From Bacteroidales bacterium (lineage in GTDB: Bacteria > Bacteroidota > Bacteroidia > Bacteroidales > Bacteroidaceae): 64,000 nt of DNA. The notes under the pieces are model-generated. The model did not search any database. It was not told the origin of the DNA and saw only the letters and a list, made by a program, of their open reading frames with translations. The translations under genes and the position numbers were made by a program. The stretch covers positions 37,613 to 101,612 of the forward strand of contig JAGHUS010000035.1 of NCBI GenBank assembly GCA_018064685.1, in the 5' to 3' direction. Position 1 is the first letter of the stretch. Each line of letters opens with the position of its first letter. Positions 2,300-53,412 of the stretch are shown one piece after another.

Positions 2300-5224
2300 T
2301 TATTTCAGTACTTTCTTTCCGTTTACAATATAGATGCCTTTCTTCAACGAAGAAGAAGAGAGCTTGCGGCCACTCAGGTCGTACACACCAGCATCCTTGC
2401 GGATGGGCAGCTGGACATCAGCAATCTCCTCAATGCCGGTCTCACCTCCACCAGTGAAGTCGTGTACGCGATTGGCCATGGTGTTGAGGGCACGCACATC
2501 GGTGGCAGAGAGCTCGCGACTGTAGATCATTAGGTCGTCGAAGCATGCATCGGCACTGCCCCACAGAGAACCGCTACCCAGATAGAAGTACTTCAAAGAG
2601 GCAACCTTAGACACGATGTCGTCAAGAGGCAGACTCTTAACCTTGTTGAGCGTTGTGCTACCCGAGAGTTCGAAGGTACTTGTTATGTTCGTAAAGTTCT
2701 TGACCGTGCCATTGACATAGATGCGGATACCGTTCTCGGGGCCCACGGTAAGTGTCACCAACGACCATTCGCCAACAGGAATGTTGGTCAACGCCTTGGT
2801 TTCGTGATGGTTCAAGTCGAATGTACCGCCATTGGCATTGTCGTAACCCAGGTGCGTATTGCCAGTAAGGAACAGACGACCAGAAGTGTTGCTATTGGCC
2901 GAGGTACTGTTAAAGAAACCCCACAATGCATTCCGTATATCATTGGAGTTACGCTTCACCCAAACCGACACGGTGAATCCGTCGAGAGGCTGACCGTCGG
3001 CCTTGGTGCAGCCAACCAAAGGATTGGGCATACGGGCATAACTGTTATTGCCATTGGTTCCATCATATAGATGTGCAAACATACCGTCGCGCTCATAGTC
3101 GCTCGCGAAGGAAGGAGCCGTACCGTTGTTCCACTTGCCATAGGTAATGAGATCATACTTCTCATCCTCCTCGGCCTTGTAGTGGTTGTAGGTGGGCTTG
3201 TCATCAAAATCGTAGTATGCCACGATGTCGCTCAGGTAGTCGCCCGAGATTTCTCCATCGGCCTTGGCCTTTACGTCGTAACTCTGCTCCCAATAGTATT
3301 CGCCGCACTCCAGGCGTGCCGTCAGCGTCACAGGCAGGTTCTCGTTCAGGCCGGTGGGATCGTACTTACCCGTCTCGCTGATGACAGCGGGCGAAGAGGA
3401 AGTCCACGACAGCTTGGCATTATGCACAGTGGGCGACATCAGCTTGAGGTTCGAGCTTACTGTCTGACCATTCTTCACACCAATAGTCATCTTGTTGAAA
3501 TTGTATTTTATGGACGACAAGGCATTCAGTTTGTAGCCCCACACAGGCACACCGTTGTTAGCCACGGCAGTAAAAGACACGGTGCCCAAGCCCGAAGTCT
3601 TGTAGTTGGCCGTAGTAGCACCATTGACATGATCCAAGCAGAATACGCCCGAATAGGTTGTGCCATTCAGGGTAAGACTCACATAAGTTGTGCCCTCTGT
3701 AAACTTCCATGTACCCGTCATATCGCCCGTCACCTTGCCATCGGCATTCAAAGTCACCGTCACGGGTGTAGCCTCGGCTTCGTTGTTGTGGTCCTGACGA
3801 TAGGGATGAACAAGCAGTCTATAGTCTCCCGGTAGATTATCTTTAGGGAAGTAGCAGCCCTCTGCGGGTTGACTCACGCCGTCATAGGCAAAGGGAGCTG
3901 CCACAAGCCAACCATTCTGGTTGACGAAGAGTTGGTGTACACGATCCTGGAAACCCTCGTTGCCATCCTTGAAGCGGGTGTGATAGACTACATAGGCTCG
4001 TCCCAGTTCGTCCACACATGCCGAGTTATGACCCTGGGCACGTTCGCCTACATTCTGAACCTCACCCCAGTTGTTATAGGCACTCATGAGGCGCACGCCA
4101 CGATCGGTAGCGGCACGAGGACCATAGTTCATCTGATAGCCCGTATAGGTGGCCGTCACACCCGCAGCATCCTTATAGGGTCCGTCCACCGTCTTGCTGC
4201 GGAAAACGCGCATCTCATAACCGGCGTTCGACTCCAGTCCGCCATACACCACGAAGAGATAGTAGTAATCACCGATATGCTGGATGTAACTGCCCTCGCC
4301 ACTCACATAGTAACCGCCGGCAATGCGCTTGCCGAAGTAAGGGTCGGAGGTAAAGTTGGCACCCTTCGTGTCGTAGTCATTCTCGTAGTGGCAGGTGTAG
4401 TCGCGCAAACCCGTCTCGTTGTCGAGCTTGAGCAGGAAGATGCCACCGCTCCACGAACCATAGCTCATCCACAACTGTCCCTCCTCGTCGTAGAAGACGC
4501 AAGGGTCGATACAGTTGGGCCAGTACGTTCCCCAGTCACCACGACGATAGCGGGCAGCAATGCTTGTCTCGCCTGTCACGAGGGTATAGTCCGTCTCACC
4601 AATCTTGGGTGCGGCCACACCGTTGTATGTCTGATCGTTGAAACCGCCCATGATGATAGGAGCCTGATAGGTAAAGGGGCCCAGAGGCGAGTTTGCAGTA
4701 AGCAGTACGATGGCACTCGACCAATGGTCGCCATTCAAACTGAGATACATACACCACTTCTTCATCGCCTCGTTGTAGATGATGTCGGGAGCCCACATGT
4801 TGCCGTATATCCAGTTGTTATCACCATAGCGCGAACAAAAAGCACGGCCGTCGAAGTTAGGGATGGACACCATCTTTCCGTCGCGTCCTTTGACCTGCTT
4901 AAGCTGCTGCTTGAAAAAAGCCTCGCCGCCATTACAGGTATTTCCACTAGTAGCTCCTTGGGAAGCCAACTGAATGAAACGGCCGTTGGCTGAAAGGCCT
5001 GTCCAGTTGACAAGGTCCTTACTCTGTGCCAGCCCCAGATGGGTACCCCAAATGGTGTACATACCATCTTTCAACACTACAGAAGGGTCGTGGATACCGA
5101 TTACCGAGCCAGAACTGAAACTTATAGTACCCATCTGTTCTGTCATGATCTGTGTCTGCGCATATCCTGCCGACGAAGTGCCTAACAGAAGCGCCAATAA
5201 CGCGAAAGTGCTTTTCAAACTCAT
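2300..5224 (-). CDS. Secreted GH43 endo-arabinanase-like enzyme with LamG-type domain
   Basis: A 974-residue exported glycoside hydrolase, probably acting on alpha-1,5-L-arabinan side chains of pectin. It has a signal peptide (about residues 1-22, ending GYAQ). The five-bladed propeller of family 43 carries its three acidic residues in recognisable contexts: HDPSVV (base, D46), MWAPDIIY (pKa-modulating Asp) and SGEGSYI (acid Glu). After the GHNSACV motif follows a beta-rich lipocalin-like C domain as in endo-arabinanases, then a concanavalin/LamG-like domain (YYDFDD ... FTVSVWVKR ... RIYVNG, about residues 665-910). The tail ends GVYDLSGRK ... KGIYIVNGKK, a type IX-like sorting signal. It is monocistronic and divergent from pflB. 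Exact linkage specificity cannot be read from sequence. Confidence 0.92.
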   Translation of the reverse strand: MSLKSTFALLALLLGTSSAGYAQTQIMTEQMGTISFSSGSVIGIHDPSVVLKDGMYTIWGTHLGLAQSKDLVNWTGLSANGRFIQLASQGATSGNTCNGGEAFFKQQLKQVKGRDGKMVSIPNFDGRAFCSRYGDNNWIYGNMWAPDIIYNEAMKKWCMYLSLNGDHWSSAIVLLTANSPLGPFTYQAPIIMGGFNDQTYNGVAAPKIGETDYTLVTGETSIAARYRRGDWGTYWPNCIDPCVFYDEEGQLWMSYGSWSGGIFLLKLDNETGLRDYTCHYENDYDTKGANFTSDPYFGKRIAGGYYVSGEGSYIQHIGDYYYLFVVYGGLESNAGYEMRVFRSKTVDGPYKDAAGVTATYTGYQMNYGPRAATDRGVRLMSAYNNWGEVQNVGERAQGHNSACVDELGRAYVVYHTRFKDGNEGFQDRVHQLFVNQNGWLVAAPFAYDGVSQPAEGCYFPKDNLPGDYRLLVHPYRQDHNNEAEATPVTVTLNADGKVTGDMTGTWKFTEGTTYVSLTLNGTTYSGVFCLDHVNGATTANYKTSGLGTVSFTAVANNGVPVWGYKLNALSSIKYNFNKMTIGVKNGQTVSSNLKLMSPTVHNAKLSWTSSSPAVISETGKYDPTGLNENLPVTLTARLECGEYYWEQSYDVKAKADGEISGDYLSDIVAYYDFDDKPTYNHYKAEEDEKYDLITYGKWNNGTAPSFASDYERDGMFAHLYDGTNGNNSYARMPNPLVGCTKADGQPLDGFTVSVWVKRNSNDIRNALWGFFNSTSANSNTSGRLFLTGNTHLGYDNANGGTFDLNHHETKALTNIPVGEWSLVTLTVGPENGIRIYVNGTVKNFTNITSTFELSGSTTLNKVKSLPLDDIVSKVASLKYFYLGSGSLWGSADACFDDLMIYSRELSATDVRALNTMANRVHDFTGGGETGIEEIADVQLPIRKDAGVYDLSGRKLSSSSLKKGIYIVNGKKVLK

Positions 5225-44513: not shown

Positions 44514-46610
44514 TTAGAAGCGACGGAAGGCGTAAACTGAATGCTTGCCGGATTTATAATCCCAAGAATATGTCGTATATACTGTAGTTCCAGAATCTTC
44601 CGTAGAGCTCCATGCACCGCCTATGTTTGTACACTCATTTTTCGCTGGCAAATACCAACCGGTAGCACCATTTACATTCAATTCCTCTACAAGTGCAAAC
44701 GCGGGATAGAGTGTTTTATATCCTGGTATCGACTTGATGATATTAGTATTGTATACACCATCGTTATAGCTATTTGCACCAGTCAGCACATTCTCCGTTG
44801 ACCAAGCAGCCTCGCCAAGATTATCGCTACAGATAAGGCGGATGGAATCGTTCATTGTGACGACCTTACCCGTAATCTTACCTTCACTATACGTGTCACC
44901 TACAGCATACTTGCTCTGAATGACCGTAATCTTACGTCCGAGATCCTTGAATGTGATGGTAGCCGTGCGGTCAGCATTACTGCCGGTGTACTCCTCTGCA
45001 CGTATTGTAATCTGATTGCCATTCTTGCTGAACGTCAACCATGATGCGCTGCTTGTAGCATCCCAAGAGGTCATACTGGTAGAGATTGTTATCGTCTGTG
45101 CACCACCCTTCTTGTCCAGATAAACCTTTTCCTTTACGTCGAAGGTCTGTGCCTTCTGGTTTACCGTATAGGTATAAATCAACGTCTTGCCGTCAGAAGC
45201 ATAGATATTGATGGTCGCACTACGATCCTTTAATGCAGGATTTGCTTCGTATGTTACAGGCATATAGACATAGTAGCCATAGTCATTTCGCTCATTAAAG
45301 CTTTGCTGCTTTAATTCTGCTTTCACCCAAGAATCAGATATTTTCACAACGAGCGATTCTGGCTTTATGCTTGTATAGAAGCTTGCTGTATATTTACCCT
45401 GATCTTTATTTACATCAATGGTCTTTGCATCATAATAATCTCTAAACCAACCATTACCTTGCGTAACCATCATTCTTTCCGAAAGCTTTCCGTCCTTGGT
45501 CGCTATCTTTATCTCTGCGTCACGCTGCGTTGTGAATGGGTTACCCTCTGTTGACAAATGGAGTACGTATGACTTTACCGTTGATTCTGATGAGGCACGC
45601 GTCTCTCCTACTTCATTGTTACCAATCCAACGTACCTTTTTCTGTTCTGCACGCACCGCAGCCGAGTTATCAACAAGTTCGGCATTTAGCCATGAAGGAA
45701 CATCACTTATCTGTAAGTTATTAAATGCCTGGTTGGTAACAATCTCTATATTCTGTTCACCACCAAATGCACTAAAATCGGCCTGTCCATTCAATACCTT
45801 GATGATAGGACCGCCACCCGTCTGCGTCACGGTAAACGTTGTCTGTTTCTTTGTCTGTGTCGTTACCGTTATGGTTGCTGTACGTGATGACTCACTGAAG
45901 TTCTCGTCACACTCTATATGTACGCCATCAACAAGCCAGCTATACTCGTGTGTAGAACAGGTAATGACTCTGCACCACCCCTCAGAACAGCTCACAGTGA
46001 AAGGGATAATTGTTGCATTAGCACAGAGAACATCCTCTGCGCCTCCCTTGCTGTTGATGGCGATGCTCTTTCTGTCAAATTTGATGGCCTCGTCCACACC
46101 GCCAAATGGCTTCTGGTACTTAATCTCAGCACCAATGACACCACCCGTGCCAGCCGCATAGAGATAATCCTGCACGTAGATGCGGTAGAATTTACCATTC
46201 GCGTAAGCCACAACACCCTCGCCAGGAACTACGGCAATCTTTCTTGCCCAGCCATTGGCAGGGATACCTGTCACATTGCCTAAGCCTTTGACCTGACCTA
46301 CACTAGCAAAGTGAACATATTGAGGAGATCCATAGGGACTGTCGTACCAATAATCCCATCCCTCAAAATTATCGTCCTTATCAATATGGATGTAAGAATC
46401 CAGACGTGTGTCACCATTCGACGCATTTCTCATCGACAGCGTGATAGTTCCTACTGGGTCGGGCACCGTTCCGCCTGTTGTGCCACTACCACTACCTGGC
46501 GTTACCACATCATCGCCATCATCGCCGCATGAGGCTATGCTGAATGCCAGCATGAGCGAGAAGACGGCAAAACAAAACTTCTTCATGTTTCGTGTCATTT
46601 CTTTTTTCAT
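44514..46610 (-). CDS. Surface lipoprotein with BACON-like domains and Fib_succ/DUF1566-like C-terminus
   Basis: A 698-residue lipoprotein from the chosen ATG (46610, MKKEMTRNMKKF); 46586 is an alternative and the track start at 46646 is unlikely. Lipobox SIASC is followed by an acidic/Gly linker (GDDGDDVVTPGSGSG), which favours surface export. Several BACON-type Ig repeats follow, recognised by SWLNAEL, GGAQTITISTSMTSWDATSSASWLTF and RTATITFKDLGRKITVIQSK. The C-terminal domain (GWYLPAKNE ... AWSSTED) resembles the DUF1566/Lcl fold. BACON domains usually bind mucin or other host or plant glycans. The gene lies downstream of a structured leader or ncRNA with its own terminator. Confidence 0.85.
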   Translation of the reverse strand: MKKEMTRNMKKFCFAVFSLMLAFSIASCGDDGDDVVTPGSGSGTTGGTVPDPVGTITLSMRNASNGDTRLDSYIHIDKDDNFEGWDYWYDSPYGSPQYVHFASVGQVKGLGNVTGIPANGWARKIAVVPGEGVVAYANGKFYRIYVQDYLYAAGTGGVIGAEIKYQKPFGGVDEAIKFDRKSIAINSKGGAEDVLCANATIIPFTVSCSEGWCRVITCSTHEYSWLVDGVHIECDENFSESSRTATITVTTQTKKQTTFTVTQTGGGPIIKVLNGQADFSAFGGEQNIEIVTNQAFNNLQISDVPSWLNAELVDNSAAVRAEQKKVRWIGNNEVGETRASSESTVKSYVLHLSTEGNPFTTQRDAEIKIATKDGKLSERMMVTQGNGWFRDYYDAKTIDVNKDQGKYTASFYTSIKPESLVVKISDSWVKAELKQQSFNERNDYGYYVYMPVTYEANPALKDRSATINIYASDGKTLIYTYTVNQKAQTFDVKEKVYLDKKGGAQTITISTSMTSWDATSSASWLTFSKNGNQITIRAEEYTGSNADRTATITFKDLGRKITVIQSKYAVGDTYSEGKITGKVVTMNDSIRLICSDNLGEAAWSTENVLTGANSYNDGVYNTNIIKSIPGYKTLYPAFALVEELNVNGATGWYLPAKNECTNIGGAWSSTEDSGTTVYTTYSWDYKSGKHSVYAFRRF

Positions 46611-46680
46611 GATTACACAATAATAATAACTGCCTCCCGTCTCCATGCAAAGGCCAAAACAGACTTATGATTATTATGTA

Positions 46681-47298: not shown

Positions 47299-50200
47299 TT
47301 ATCTCACCGCAGTCTTCACGCCATTGATGATGTAGATGCCACGCTGGGTGGGACGGCCATTGAGCTTCACACCGTTGAGCGTGTAGATGCTAGCCTTCTC
47401 AAGGTCAGAGGCATTGATGTCGCGGATGGCATCCACCTTACCCTTGATGACGAGGATACCCTCGGCAAGGCGGTCGGTGTCCCACTCGTACTGAGGATCG
47501 AGGTCGAGTACGAGAGCTGTGCCCAAAGTGATCTTGTCGGCCGAGATGATCTGCAACTCAGTGCCTTCTGCCAGGTCGATGCCCTCCTTGAGGATGACCT
47601 TCAAGGTGCCGTTGAGTTTCAGCGTACCGATGTTGGTGAACTTGCTGTATGAAGACTTTGTCGACACGTAGGTCTGCATGGTACCGTTGACGGTGACATT
47701 CTTGCCAGAGAACTGCAGGTTACCCTGAGCGTTGCTCTCGGTGACACCACTGCGCAGCACACCGCCAGCAGCCACCGTAACACTACTGTTGGCCATCACA
47801 CCCTTACCCGAGAGGGTGGCATCCTTGGCCACGGTCAGCACACCGGTACCCAGCATGGGGTTAGTAGCCGTGGTGTTGAGCACCAACTCACCGGCATTGA
47901 CCTTACAAGCACCCGAGAACGAGCCCGAACCCTTGTGAGTCATCTTGCAAGAGCCCACCTTGTTGAAGGCAGTGATGTTGGCTCCGCCACGGTCGGTGAT
48001 GGTACCCTCGAAGGTGAAGTTCTTGTCATCGCTGTTACCGATATTATAGGTAACGGTGCCCGATACGGCTGACGAACTCTTGAAGTCGCAACCCGAGTTG
48101 GTGAGGTCACCCTTACCGGTGACAGCACCGATGGTCCAGGTACGTCCAGGCACGTTAGCCACGCCACAGCCTGCCGCAATGTCGAGGGTGGCATGAGGTG
48201 CACTTATCGACATATCGAGAGGCAACCAAACGTTGGTGTTAGCCTGCTTGATGGTACCGTAGAAGTTGCTCCAGTCACCCAGAATACGTACACGGCTGAC
48301 GGTGTTGCGAGCAATGATGTTGAATGTACCCTCGCCCGTCAGTTTGTTATTATACGCGATATAATAGGTATAGGTGAGGTTCCAGTTACAGGTCTTGCCC
48401 TTGGCGATGCTCATAGGCACGTCGGTATTGGAGGCATCATCCCAGATGGTGCTGTTGCCCGTTATCTCGATAGCCTTGGGCGAAGCACCGCCACCGATAG
48501 CCAGGCCGCCCTGTGCCAGGGTAAGCTTGTTGAGGTTTGCGTTGCTGGCCAGGAGGAAGAGCGAACCGGCACCCTTCTTGGTGAGCTGCGTACCGCTGAA
48601 TGAAGCGCTCATCTTGAAGTCGGCAGCATTGTTGATAACACCACCCTCGTCTGTCTTGAGCGTGATGGGAGAGGTAGTCTCCACTGCAGCTGTACTGTTC
48701 AGCTCAGCACCATTCTGCATGATAAACTTATTCGCGCCGGTGACACCACCCAGATTACCCGTCTCGCTGATGGCATTCGACAAAGCACTGACCACAGTGA
48801 CACCACCGCTCAGCGTGTTACCACCCGTGTAGAGGTTGTTGTTGGTCATTGTCACCTTGCCTGTGCCCTCCTTGACGAACTTGGCAGCGCCATCGATGGC
48901 ACCCGTACCCTGGAAGGTGTAAGCTGCGGTGTTATCTACAGTGAGCGTCTTGGGAATGACACTACCTACGATGTTGACAGTCTTGTTGGTGGCGTCGTCG
49001 TTGAAGATGACGTTGTCCTCCGAAACGAAGATAGTAGCCTCATCGCCAATCTTGAAGCTCTCGCTCTCGCCCAGATCCCACTTGTTGGTGGCACCCGACC
49101 AGATGACGGTACCCGCATCGCGCATGCCTACAATCTCGAGGATGAGTTTGCCGTCCTCGACATAAAGCAGTTTCTTGCTGGTGTCGAGACCCTCAAGCAC
49201 GATATTATCCAGCTTGCCGGTAATGTTACCCGAGATGGTACCGATGACGTACTTGCCAGGCATCATGGTCTTCTCGCCCGTCTTAAGATGGCCTACAACC
49301 TGGATGACAGGTGAGAGATAGGTGGGACCAGCCGTCAGCCATGCTGATGTGGTCTTGGCCTCGATGCTGAGGTTGGTCATGTTGATCTGGTCGGCTGTGA
49401 CATCGTCGGCAAAGAGGTCGACGATGATGCGCGAACCGAAGCCCAGGTTGAGGTCTCCCGTGGTGAGGCTACCCTTGCTGTCCTCGCCACCGGGACGGAT
49501 GATGCTGGCATAGTCAGCCTTGATGCTCTTGAACTCGCCACCGTTGCTGTTCAGTTCGGCAAAGCGGTTGAGCCAGAGGTCAGACTCCTTGAGTGTACCG
49601 TCGAAGTTGAGCACACCCGCCCAAATGTCGGTGTTGCCGGTATGCTTGAAGGCAGCCTTGGGCAGAGTCAGTACACCGTCGCCCTGCTTCACGAGTCGTG
49701 CATCGCCTGCCAAGCCACCACCTGCAACGGTGCAAGTATAGGTGGTGTAGGTGATCTTGGTATCCTTGGTGCTGCACTCGCTGGGCGCAGTACCCTGTAC
49801 CCAGGTAGGCACGTTGAAGACGAGCAAGTGAGGCTGAGCACCATCCTGCAATGTAACAGCCGAGTTGTTCGTCTCGCAGACAATGACATCCTTGCCGTTG
49901 TGGGCTGCAGAGATGCTACCGCCATTGACTACCTCCTCACGTCCGTTCATGGTGAGTGGAGGAGGAGCCTGCGTGATGCCATCGGTCTTGCCCAGGAAGA
50001 AGCTGGGATGAGGAGGCTGGTTGTAGCCACACATCTGCCATACCATGGCGTTGCGATACTGATGGTCGGCCCACAGAGTGGGGATGCGATAGGTGGTGCT
50101 GGTAGGCGTAGTGTAGATGCGTATGTTATTGTCGGGGGTGCGCATGATGATCTCCTCGCGCCAGTCGCCCAGGATGTCGCCCTGATAGCAGGGAGTAGCC

Positions 50201-51837
50201 TTGGTGTAGTTATTGGTGAGCGAACCAGCACAAGTGTAGATGGGTGTCCAACTACCGTACTTGGCTATTACACCAGGCGAGTCATTTAACTTCTCGCCGT
50301 TGAAGGTCTCAGAAACCAAGTCGCCATCCCAGTAGATGCGCATATTGCTGTTCACACCAGTTGCATCCAAGCCAGACACTTCGGCATTGGCCACGGTACT
50401 GATGGTGCCCCATGCCGTACCCAAGCCACCGGGGTACGCCTCGGTGAAGTTGCCTGCCATGGCACGACCTACGTCCTTACCGACATGCAGTGTCTGCGCA
50501 TAAATCTTGCTGGTTGTAGCATCGCGATAGTTGAAGCCCTGCTCGTCCTCGTTGCAGCAGAACTGCTCCTGGCCGTGTACATAAGGGTTGAGGTCGCCGC
50601 AATGCTGAGCATCGCCGTGGCCCAGCCCTGCGGTAGAGAGTCCCTTACCATTGTCGTCGATGACCATCGAACCGAAGACGATCTCATCACGTCCGTCCCA
50701 GTCGACATCGGCTATGGCAAAGTTGTGATAGCCCTGGCCCTTCCACGGACCGTTGGTGTTGTTATACCACTTCCAGCGCTGTGTCAGTTTATGAGTAGCA
50801 GGGTTCACATCGAGAGCCACCATCTTGTGACGGGTGTAGATACCACGAGCCAGGAAGATGCTGGGCTTGCGGCCATCCAGATAGGGAGCACCGAAAAAGA
50901 ACTTGCTGCTGCGATGGCCGTAACCGTCGCCCCAAGCCTTGTTCAGGTCGGTCTCGCCTGCCTCGAAGCGTGCCAAGGGGAAGTCGATGCACTGATAGAC
51001 CTCACCCGTCTCACCGTTGCAGTAAACGAGAAACTCCTTACCGTCATGTACGAACCAGTTGGTGCCACCACCTGTGGCAGCACGATAGTTGGTCCAACTG
51101 GTACCGTTCTGACCATTGGCACCTATGGTGTAGGTCTTGCCGTTGGCATAGTGGATGGTAGAACCTTCAGCCAGACGCATCACAGCCTCGGCCTTGCCAT
51201 CGCAGTCCCAGTCGTAGGCTACGATGTTCTGCTCATTGTTCTGGAAGTCGCCCATGTTCGGACCGCAGTTCACCCACCACAATCGGGTGCCGTCCAACTT
51301 GAGGCACTCGAAGATGCTGTACTCACCCGTCACCTTGCCGTCCACCGTAGGACCGGCCTTGGGATAGGACTGAGCAGCCTCGCTGTCGTTGTCGAACTTC
51401 ATCAATATCTCCAACTCGCCATCGCCATTCACATCGGCACAACAGGCATCGTTGGGAATAAGCTTACTGGCAATGCCTTCGTGGGTGAGTTTGATCTCTT
51501 TGTAACTCGTACTCCAGGGCTTCACGCTCTTGCTGGCATCCTGCTCCACGCCACGCACCACAGCCTTGATGGTGTAGGTGCTGCTGGTCGTACCAGTTTT
51601 GTCGGTGTAGTTAGAAACGCTGAGAGGTTCGGCGTTGAGCTTCGTGCCGTCACGATACACATTGTAGGTGACGTCGTAATACTCCTCGCCCAGGATGCGC
51701 CAATTCAGGTATACACCCGTCGCAGCCTTTTGGGCTACCAGTCCACGATCCAGCTTGTCAGCCACGCGCTGAGCCTGCATGGGCATCGTGCCCACCCCTA
51801 GCGCCACGGCCATTGCCAATAGGATTTTCTTTTTCAT
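47299..51837 (-). CDS. Giant rhamnogalacturonan lyase (PL11) with autotransporter-type repeats
   Basis: A 1512-residue exported polysaccharide lyase expected to cleave the rhamnogalacturonan I backbone of pectin. After the signal peptide (ending MPMQA) comes the fibronectin-like start and eight-bladed propeller of PL11/YesW enzymes, with calcium-type loops (ADVNGDGELEILMKFD, YDWDCDGKAEAVMR, ADVDWDGRDEIVFGS) and GDWREEIIMRTPDNNIRIY, to about residue 620. The remaining 890 residues are repeats of the autotransporter-associated type (KEGTGKVTMTNNNLYTGGNT, KKGAGSLFLLASNANL), predicted to form a beta-solenoid. The tail TLNGVKLNGRPTQRGIYIIN resembles a type IX-like sorting signal. The -7 box overlaps the murF stop. 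Confidence 0.92.
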   Translation of the reverse strand: MKKKILLAMAVALGVGTMPMQAQRVADKLDRGLVAQKAATGVYLNWRILGEEYYDVTYNVYRDGTKLNAEPLSVSNYTDKTGTTSSTYTIKAVVRGVEQDASKSVKPWSTSYKEIKLTHEGIASKLIPNDACCADVNGDGELEILMKFDNDSEAAQSYPKAGPTVDGKVTGEYSIFECLKLDGTRLWWVNCGPNMGDFQNNEQNIVAYDWDCDGKAEAVMRLAEGSTIHYANGKTYTIGANGQNGTSWTNYRAATGGGTNWFVHDGKEFLVYCNGETGEVYQCIDFPLARFEAGETDLNKAWGDGYGHRSSKFFFGAPYLDGRKPSIFLARGIYTRHKMVALDVNPATHKLTQRWKWYNNTNGPWKGQGYHNFAIADVDWDGRDEIVFGSMVIDDNGKGLSTAGLGHGDAQHCGDLNPYVHGQEQFCCNEDEQGFNYRDATTSKIYAQTLHVGKDVGRAMAGNFTEAYPGGLGTAWGTISTVANAEVSGLDATGVNSNMRIYWDGDLVSETFNGEKLNDSPGVIAKYGSWTPIYTCAGSLTNNYTKATPCYQGDILGDWREEIIMRTPDNNIRIYTTPTSTTYRIPTLWADHQYRNAMVWQMCGYNQPPHPSFFLGKTDGITQAPPPLTMNGREEVVNGGSISAAHNGKDVIVCETNNSAVTLQDGAQPHLLVFNVPTWVQGTAPSECSTKDTKITYTTYTCTVAGGGLAGDARLVKQGDGVLTLPKAAFKHTGNTDIWAGVLNFDGTLKESDLWLNRFAELNSNGGEFKSIKADYASIIRPGGEDSKGSLTTGDLNLGFGSRIIVDLFADDVTADQINMTNLSIEAKTTSAWLTAGPTYLSPVIQVVGHLKTGEKTMMPGKYVIGTISGNITGKLDNIVLEGLDTSKKLLYVEDGKLILEIVGMRDAGTVIWSGATNKWDLGESESFKIGDEATIFVSEDNVIFNDDATNKTVNIVGSVIPKTLTVDNTAAYTFQGTGAIDGAAKFVKEGTGKVTMTNNNLYTGGNTLSGGVTVVSALSNAISETGNLGGVTGANKFIMQNGAELNSTAAVETTSPITLKTDEGGVINNAADFKMSASFSGTQLTKKGAGSLFLLASNANLNKLTLAQGGLAIGGGASPKAIEITGNSTIWDDASNTDVPMSIAKGKTCNWNLTYTYYIAYNNKLTGEGTFNIIARNTVSRVRILGDWSNFYGTIKQANTNVWLPLDMSISAPHATLDIAAGCGVANVPGRTWTIGAVTGKGDLTNSGCDFKSSSAVSGTVTYNIGNSDDKNFTFEGTITDRGGANITAFNKVGSCKMTHKGSGSFSGACKVNAGELVLNTTATNPMLGTGVLTVAKDATLSGKGVMANSSVTVAAGGVLRSGVTESNAQGNLQFSGKNVTVNGTMQTYVSTKSSYSKFTNIGTLKLNGTLKVILKEGIDLAEGTELQIISADKITLGTALVLDLDPQYEWDTDRLAEGILVIKGKVDAIRDINASDLEKASIYTLNGVKLNGRPTQRGIYIINGVKTAVR

Positions 51838-51879: not shown

Positions 51880-51887
51880 GAAAGTTA
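51880..51887 (-). promoter_or_regulatory. Possible -7 box of PL11 overlapping the murF stop codon
   Basis: Minus strand TAACTTTC, one mismatch to TAnnTTTG. Its TAA is the murF stop codon. Confidence 0.45.
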
Positions 51888-53255
51888 CAACAACTCGGGC
51901 AACTGGAACAACTTCGTGCCGTTGCTACCCTTTATCAGAATCGTGTAGCCCTCGAGTGGATTGGCCTTCAACTCTGCCTTCACCTCCTCAACGTCAGCAA
52001 AGGTACGTATCACGCAACCTTTCTCCCCTTCTGCAATAGTTGTCACTGCGCAGCCATTCTCCCCCTCGGGGGAGATGCCCGAAGGGCAGAGAGGGGCCGC
52101 AAGTCGGGCTACCTTCTCAAACTCACTGCCCACCAGCCATGCCTGTTCTACGCCGTTCTTGCCCAGCAGTGCCACAATGTTGCGATGCTCCTGCTCGCTG
52201 CCAGCACCCAGTTCGCGCATGTCGCCCAGAATGGCCATCTTGTTGGGCACGTCCATCATGCCGAAATTAGTCAGGGCGGCGGTCATGGACGAGGGGTTGG
52301 CGTTGTAGGCATCGACGATAAGCTTGTTCTTGCCCGTATCGCGGAACTCGCTACGGCTGTTGGTAGGAACATAGGCAGCCAGCGCGGCATCGATATCCTC
52401 GGCAGGCACGCCGAAGTACAGACCTACCGTCACGGCAGCACGTATATTGGCTATGTTATAGGCACCGACAAGGTGGGTCTGCACAGTGTGCCAAGGCATC
52501 TCATCGCCCTCGCGCCACTGTGCCACGAGAAACGAGGTGCAATCCTCGACACGCCCCTCGACATAGGCTATCACCTCAGCATTACGGCTCTCGGCCATTT
52601 GGCGCAGATCGTCGTCAAAAGCATTCAGGAACACCTTTCCACCCCGTTCAGCCAGGTCATCATACAGCTCACCTTTCGTAGCCTTCACGCCCTCGAACGA
52701 GCCAAAGCCCTCGAGGTGAGCACGTCCCACATTGGTGATGAGTCCGTAGTCGGCCTGCACCATCTTGCACAGGAAGGCTATCTCGCCGGGGTGGTTGGCA
52801 CCGGTCTCGACGACGGCCATCTCGTGCTCGGGACGTATGCGCAGCAAGGTGCGAGGCACACCGATGTGGTTGTTCAGATTGCCCTGCGTGAAGAGCGTGT
52901 TGTACTTACGGCTCAGCACAGCACTCACCAGTTCCTTCGTAGTGGTCTTGCCGTTCGTACCCGTAATCTGCAGTATGGGAATGCTGAGTTGCTGACGATG
53001 ATAGGCAGCCAGCGACTGCAGGGTGGACAGCACGTCGTCTACCAGGATGTAGCGCCTGTCACCCTCCACGGCATACTCCTTCTCGTCCACCACGGCGTAG
53101 GCACAGCCGGCCTCGAGAGCCGAAGCGGCAAACTTATTACCATCGAACGAAGCACCCTTCAAGGCGAAAAACATGTCACCTTCGCCACACTGCCTGTTGT
53201 CGGTAGTGACAACAGGGTGCTGCTGATATATCTCGTAAATATCTTCTATTCTCAT
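51885..53255 (-). CDS. murF: UDP-MurNAc-tripeptide:D-Ala-D-Ala ligase with inserted repeat
   Basis: Cytosolic Mur ligase adding D-Ala-D-Ala to form the UDP-MurNAc-pentapeptide. Start is the ATG at 53255 (MRIEDIYEIYQQHPVV); the ORF track adds 16 upstream residues. Visible are the P-loop ITGTNGKTTTKEL (about residue 100-112), VVETGANHPGEI, the NIRAAV segment and DAYNANPSSM, with the C-terminal ILIKGSNGTKLFQLPELL. About 25-30 extra residues (APLCPSGISPEGENGCAV onward) near residue 400 come from a palindromic repeat, between the VGSEFEKVA segment and FADVEEVKAEL. It is divergent from folP; murF is single here, away from the dcw cluster. Confidence 0.95.
   Translation of the reverse strand: MRIEDIYEIYQQHPVVTTDNRQCGEGDMFFALKGASFDGNKFAASALEAGCAYAVVDEKEYAVEGDRRYILVDDVLSTLQSLAAYHRQQLSIPILQITGTNGKTTTKELVSAVLSRKYNTLFTQGNLNNHIGVPRTLLRIRPEHEMAVVETGANHPGEIAFLCKMVQADYGLITNVGRAHLEGFGSFEGVKATKGELYDDLAERGGKVFLNAFDDDLRQMAESRNAEVIAYVEGRVEDCTSFLVAQWREGDEMPWHTVQTHLVGAYNIANIRAAVTVGLYFGVPAEDIDAALAAYVPTNSRSEFRDTGKNKLIVDAYNANPSSMTAALTNFGMMDVPNKMAILGDMRELGAGSEQEHRNIVALLGKNGVEQAWLVGSEFEKVARLAAPLCPSGISPEGENGCAVTTIAEGEKGCVIRTFADVEEVKAELKANPLEGYTILIKGSNGTKLFQLPELL
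52056..52097. repeat. Palindromic repeat inside murF
   Basis: ATTCTCCCCCTCGGGGGAGA followed by TGCCCGAAGGGCAGAGAGGGG, read on the coding strand as PLCPSGISPEGEN. It resembles the end of the permease insertion (TCTGTCCTTCGGACATCTCC). Confidence 0.85.
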
Positions 53256-53412
53256 TGTTCCGTTATGTTGTTTATGCACATTTTGCGCAAAATAATCGCA
53301 CAAAAATACAAATAATATTATTATGTACGCGCGAAATTGTGCGTTTTTTCCGTTTAAATGAACAAAAATATAATATTTGCACTTTTATAATCATCCGTAA
53401 CAACATTTTTTG

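Follow-up and report, generated by a model that had tools for sequence, protein, structure and literature searches.

A conserved beta-solenoid, almost confined to pectin lyases in its genus, on a predicted T9SS-exported rhamnogalacturonan lyase of a Prevotella-type bacterium

Our analysis showed that a single gene of a Prevotella-type gut bacterium encodes a signal peptide, a PL11 rhamnogalacturonan lyase, a long beta-solenoid, which is old and conserved, and a short C-terminal tag. In this genus the solenoid is nearly restricted to pectin lyases, which is the interesting and new part of the result. We think it fairly probable that this lyase is exported by the type IX secretion system (T9SS) and that its solenoid engages pectin or the plant cell wall and stays on the enzyme once the tag has been removed.

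Positions of the lyase gene, its parts and the adjoining murF gene in the window (residue numbers are those of the protein)
Feature	Position	Strand	Basis or source
Whole gene: signal peptide, PL11, beta-solenoid and C-terminal tag, 1512 aa	47299-51837	(-)	
Signal peptide, residues 1-22, predicted cleavage between A22 and Q23	51772-51837	(-)	Bacteroidetes Q-rule
PL11 rhamnogalacturonan lyase catalytic domain, residues 24-628	49954-51768	(-)	
Beta-solenoid region, residues ~641-1455	47473-49917	(-)	
PATR repeat, residues 715-744	49606-49695	(-)	
PATR/autotrns_rpt repeat, residues 987-1016	48790-48879	(-)	
C-terminal tag, residues 1478-1512, putative reduced T9SS type A sorting signal, motif D/E-like	47302-47406	(-)	PMC10202324
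murF, 47 bp upstream of the lyase gene	51885-53303	(-)	

The reading frame starts with ATG and ends with TAA, and the chance expectation for an open frame this long in the window (the whole stretch of 64,000 nucleotides that was analysed) is about 5e-24. An artefact or frame fusion was ruled out by the equal length of the protein in 34 orthologues. The ORF, the domain matches and the AlphaFold2 fold all agree that the fusion of a lyase with a long repeat region is real. The original prediction was correct as to the PL11 domain, the long beta-solenoid, the C-terminal sorting tail and the Prevotella-type host, and the domain search and structure prediction that it proposed gave PL11 and PATR matches and a continuous solenoid model. 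It had counted about 890 residues of repeats; the long solenoid is there, but it covers about 815 residues, and the tail is a separate element.

The PL11 family models matched over their full length and far above their cut-offs: PF18370 at residues 25-108 (Pfam, E 2.6e-30, model positions 2-86 of 86) and PF21348 at residues 117-618 (Pfam, E 8.6e-114, model positions 13-483 of 490). YesW (2z8r) aligned to the catalytic domain with an E value of 1.1e-120. Residues N129, D130, N543, K546 and N606, which correspond to the YesW cleft, are invariant in 35 orthologues, and D149 is Asp in 16 of these 35 and Asn or Pro in the others. The active-site Gly of the YesW N-G-T motif, which we take to be Gly533 in YesW numbering, is replaced here by Y544 (window ~50206-50208) and is D in 24 of the 35 orthologues. 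With this position changed, the activity or specificity of the predicted lyase may differ in this PL11 clade.

The solenoid matched PATR (PF12951) with an E value of 6.5e-11, two stretches passing alone and the best lying at residues 715-744, and autotrns_rpt (TIGR02601) with an E value of 2.4e-11. The protein thus combines PF12951 and TIGR02601 matches above cut-off with a beta-solenoid, as PATR proteins do. Our AlphaFold2 model of residues 630-1512, built with 35 orthologues as input, was a continuous beta-solenoid with a mean pLDDT of 91.4, and its first 840 residues contained 51% strand and 2% helix in 84 strand runs. The names PATR and autotrns_rpt bring to mind the passenger of a type V autotransporter, but the protein lacks a C-terminal beta-barrel and finishes with the 35-residue tag. 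No barrel family was matched and there is no space for one C-terminal of the solenoid, so that this reading is practically excluded and "autotransporter-type", as the region had been called, applies to the repeat name only.

The best solved fold for the solenoid was CBM89 (7jvi), with a Foldseek probability of 1.00 and an E value of 9.8e-7; the superposition gave a TM score of 0.61 on the target, an rmsd of 6 and 16% identity. No sequence link to 7jvi was obtained from profile A1 (E up to 1) or profile A3 (E up to 10), and homology to CBM89 was dropped: the likeness is one of fold only. The best matches other than CBMs were autotransporter passengers, and the viral fold library gave nothing useful. 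Many pectin enzymes (PL1, PL9, GH28, CE8) are beta-helices and the solenoid, which has this fold, also matched PL6 weakly (E 0.25), as might be expected if it were a second enzyme. However, no catalytic family of Pfam or NCBIfam matched the solenoid region, and its best fold match, a xylan-binding beta-helix, is reported to be non-catalytic (PMC8810776). We regard a second enzyme as very improbable.

We then surveyed 101 genomes of the genus, 62 of which carry PL11. By hand count, a PL11 frame of at least 1470 aa (about 1500 aa) is present in at least 37 of the 62. The layout was identical in all 34 genus orthologues fetched, which are 1498-1565 aa long with few gaps. Where a host is named it is mostly a MAG from rumen or horse gut, but there are also isolates such as Prevotella sp. 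P3-122, P5-92 and P2-180. In-frame stops flagged in some PL11 matches of other genomes are ordinary gene stop codons. The solenoid is under clear constraint: its identity to the home protein is 37-82% across the 34 orthologues, its mean pairwise identity is 50% versus 61% for the catalytic part, many of its positions are invariant and its length is nearly constant.

Eight further families of Bacteroidales gave 20 PL11 proteins of ~1500 aa, all of them with a collinear solenoid; outside the order, in a sample of the phylum, PL11 proteins were nearly all 600-1215 aa long, with one of 1621 aa. Mapped on the tree of catalytic domains, presence of the solenoid requires 2 changes, versus 26 for shuffled labels. 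Two PL11 clades of the genus have the solenoid, and the plain and other PL11 clades are without it. The home genome itself has four PL11 proteins, namely a plain one (C16), a long one without solenoid (C15), the studied lyase (C13) and a solenoid-bearing paralogue (C116), the last being distant from the studied lyase (29% identity in the catalytic part, 32% in the solenoid). Our literature search found no paper on PL11 with PATR or autotrns_rpt repeats. The view that fused repeats are unusual for PL11 has to be given up, as they occur in two genus clades and in PL11 proteins of at least eight further families of Bacteroidales. That they might be common to most Prevotella PL11, which the original prediction had named as the case against it, is largely what the genus counts show, although not for the plain and other clades. 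Solenoid-bearing PL11 is a real and well conserved variant, and a more ordinary one than first thought.

Other PL11 proteins of the genus differ in their additions. One further clade (L007, 535-4302) is 1255 aa long in the home genome and about 1100 in relatives, with ~300 residues before the lyase and ~350 after it that have no family match. Others (L085, L086, L087 and L090) have dockerin type I repeats at the C-terminus; the PF00404 match has an E value of 3.7e-10 in L086 and 1.9e-4 in L085. Bacteroidota dockerins without a known cohesin partner merit attention.

All seven PATR matches of the home genome fall in three ORFs: the studied PL11, the C116 PL11 and a PL1-type pectate lyase (C195), which matches the solved pectate lyase 9buj with an E value of 1.9e-25. 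A further 20 PATR ORFs of the genus comprise 12 PL11 of the C116 type, 4 PL11 of the studied type, 3 of the PL1 type and a fragment without assignment that is probably frame-broken. In the order sample PATR was again mostly on PL11 and PL1; a single CE8 pectinesterase and a single alginate-lyase-like protein carry it too, as do several proteins that are giant or of unknown role. The repeat itself is therefore not pectin-specific, as its presence in the giant and alginate-lyase-like proteins of the order indicates.

These partners bear on the question of whether the solenoid does no more than serve as a stalk or as a folding or export scaffold, spacing the lyase from the surface without affinity for carbohydrate. 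In type V passengers PATR solenoids serve as stalks, and such passengers are the best fold matches here apart from CBMs; moreover, the most conserved residues of our solenoid are largely Gly and hydrophobic core, as in any solenoid. However, a generic stalk would not be expected to have almost only pectin lyases as partners in the genus, to keep a nearly constant length, or to retain the same layout across the order while nearly all of the ~70 ORFs with the same C-terminal tag in the home genome lack it. As almost no other tagged protein has the solenoid, it is unlikely to serve export in general and likely to have a task connected with pectin. We thus consider the stalk or scaffold rather unlikely, though it deserves more weight than the second enzyme. 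Whether the solenoid binds pectin or the wall seems to us evenly balanced. More tentatively, and with less confidence than in binding as such, the ~815-residue solenoid might found a new, very large pectin CBM family, common to T9SS-exported PL11, PL1 and CE8 of gut Bacteroidales and built from repeats of the type V passenger type.

As to export, the signal peptide (MKKK...MQA, followed by QR), recognised by inspection, fits the Bacteroidetes Q-rule for signal peptide cleavage (PMC5837995), and A22, Q23 and R24 are invariant in 35 orthologues. The C-terminal tag has the core IYTLNGVKLNGRPTQRGIYIINGVKTAVR. Neither TIGR04183 nor PF18962 scored above cut-off in the home protein, the ~35-residue tag being too short to score against TIGR04183. 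Among 22 more distant proteins, TIGR04183 was found in 15 and PF18962 in 14, and in the distant member viewed in full the T9SS domain follows the solenoid, in the same place as the home tag. A profile of the distant set matched the solved T9SS C-terminal domains 8glk (E 6e-8) and 8glj (E 3e-4) and, weakly, gingipain RgpB 5hfs (E 0.46). The tag is shared at E<1e-3 by the ~70 ORFs of the home genome, ending within a few residues of the stop in those read by eye, and only five matches to TIGR04183 exceed the cut-off across that genome. The short tag appears to be the usual form in this genus rather than a TIGR04183 match. With a tag model built for the genus, many more proteins would be predicted as T9SS cargo. 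In the window a matching tag (2306-2398) also ends a GH43 enzyme of 974 aa (2300-5224, minus strand).

According to a review (PMC10202324), a reporter is exported when it carries just the final 22 residues of the HBP35 CTD, of which the final 13 are required; this makes a short tag plausible. PorU was found in the home genome and in all 13 genus genomes checked, and GldM in the home genome. The translocon SprA was not found in the home assembly, which is 84% complete; it is present in 10 of the 13 genus genomes, with the home genome counted among the 13. Predicted export of the lyase protein by T9SS is well supported, and we hold it to be highly probable.

The favoured reading, a T9SS-exported lyase with a wall-engaging solenoid, would work as follows. 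A Sec signal peptide would take the protein out of the cytoplasm and be cut before Gln23. The protein would fold in the periplasm, its tag would be recognised, and it would cross the outer membrane. The PorU sortase would then remove the tag and either anchor the protein to surface polysaccharide or release it, with the ~815-residue solenoid still joined to the propeller. The solenoid would be a large module without catalytic function, one that binds to pectin or pectin-rich wall and also holds the enzyme away from the surface. Sequence and model show the order of the domains, the fold of the solenoid, its conservation, the shared tag and the pectin-lyase partners in the genus, whereas the route of export, the cleavage of the tag and the binding to the wall are inferred.

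Alternatively, a protease might cut between propeller and solenoid, so that the lyase is released and the solenoid left behind or discarded. The stretch just N-terminal of the junction, roughly residues 591-621, has a low pLDDT (about 48-55), and our second AlphaFold model, of propeller plus solenoid, has a pTM of 0.82 with a weak junction and does not establish rigid docking. However, the junction sequence (626-650) is conserved, with a mean of 0.68, and known substrates of PorU are cut close to their C-terminal domain (PMC10202324). Such a cut is improbable. The original suggestion that the enzyme is held outside the cell or on pectin gains support from the T9SS evidence and from the nearly exclusive pectin-enzyme partners of the solenoid in the genus.

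On one side the lyase gene has murF, folP, cdaA, pta and ackA as neighbours, and no SusC/SusD pair was found among the window ORFs scanned; membership in a PUL was thereby ruled out. In 19 of the 34 orthologue loci the gene directly upstream, with the same orientation, is murF, mostly at a distance of tens of bases, and this recurrent neighbour indicates a stable chromosomal locus, not a PUL. Downstream of the lyase is a lipoprotein-like ORF with BACON domains (window 44514-46646, minus strand).

A pectin-binding solenoid would be among the largest carbohydrate-binding modules and, with CBM89 as the first, the second example of a beta-helix that serves for binding. Binding, if true, would also point to a way of using pectin in herbivore-gut Prevotella that does not depend on SusC/SusD loci, with secreted enzymes acting on the wall itself, and would correct the habit of taking Bacteroidota PATR repeats for autotransporters.

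The protein resembles several known systems in part. With the PL11 enzymes YesW (2z8r), YesX (2zuy) and 4cag it has the whole catalytic propeller and the N-terminal beta domain in common (24-628); those enzymes are ~600 aa long, whereas this one has 880 further residues and a replacement at the presumed Gly533 of YesW. CapCBM89 (7jvi) is likewise a right-handed beta-helix beside a plant-wall enzyme in a Bacteroidaceae gut bacterium, but it is about half as long, lies N-terminal to a xylanase, binds xylan and has no sequence link to our solenoid. Type V passengers (Ssp 8e7f, Hap, Ag43, fusolisin) share the PATR repeats and the solenoid fold; however, they have a barrel domain, which the lyase protein lacks, and another secretion route. 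T9SS type A cargo (PF18962/TIGR04183) has, like the lyase protein, a signal peptide and a C-terminal tag with a motif D/E-like pattern, though the full domain is seen in the distant members and the home tag of ~35 residues falls below the family model. The T9SS multi-modular CAZymes of Ca. Paraporphyromonas, in the part of the report considered here (PMC5831590), are also large exported plant-wall enzymes outside classical PULs, but they are described there as cellulases with several catalytic domains, and that part does not mention a solenoid.
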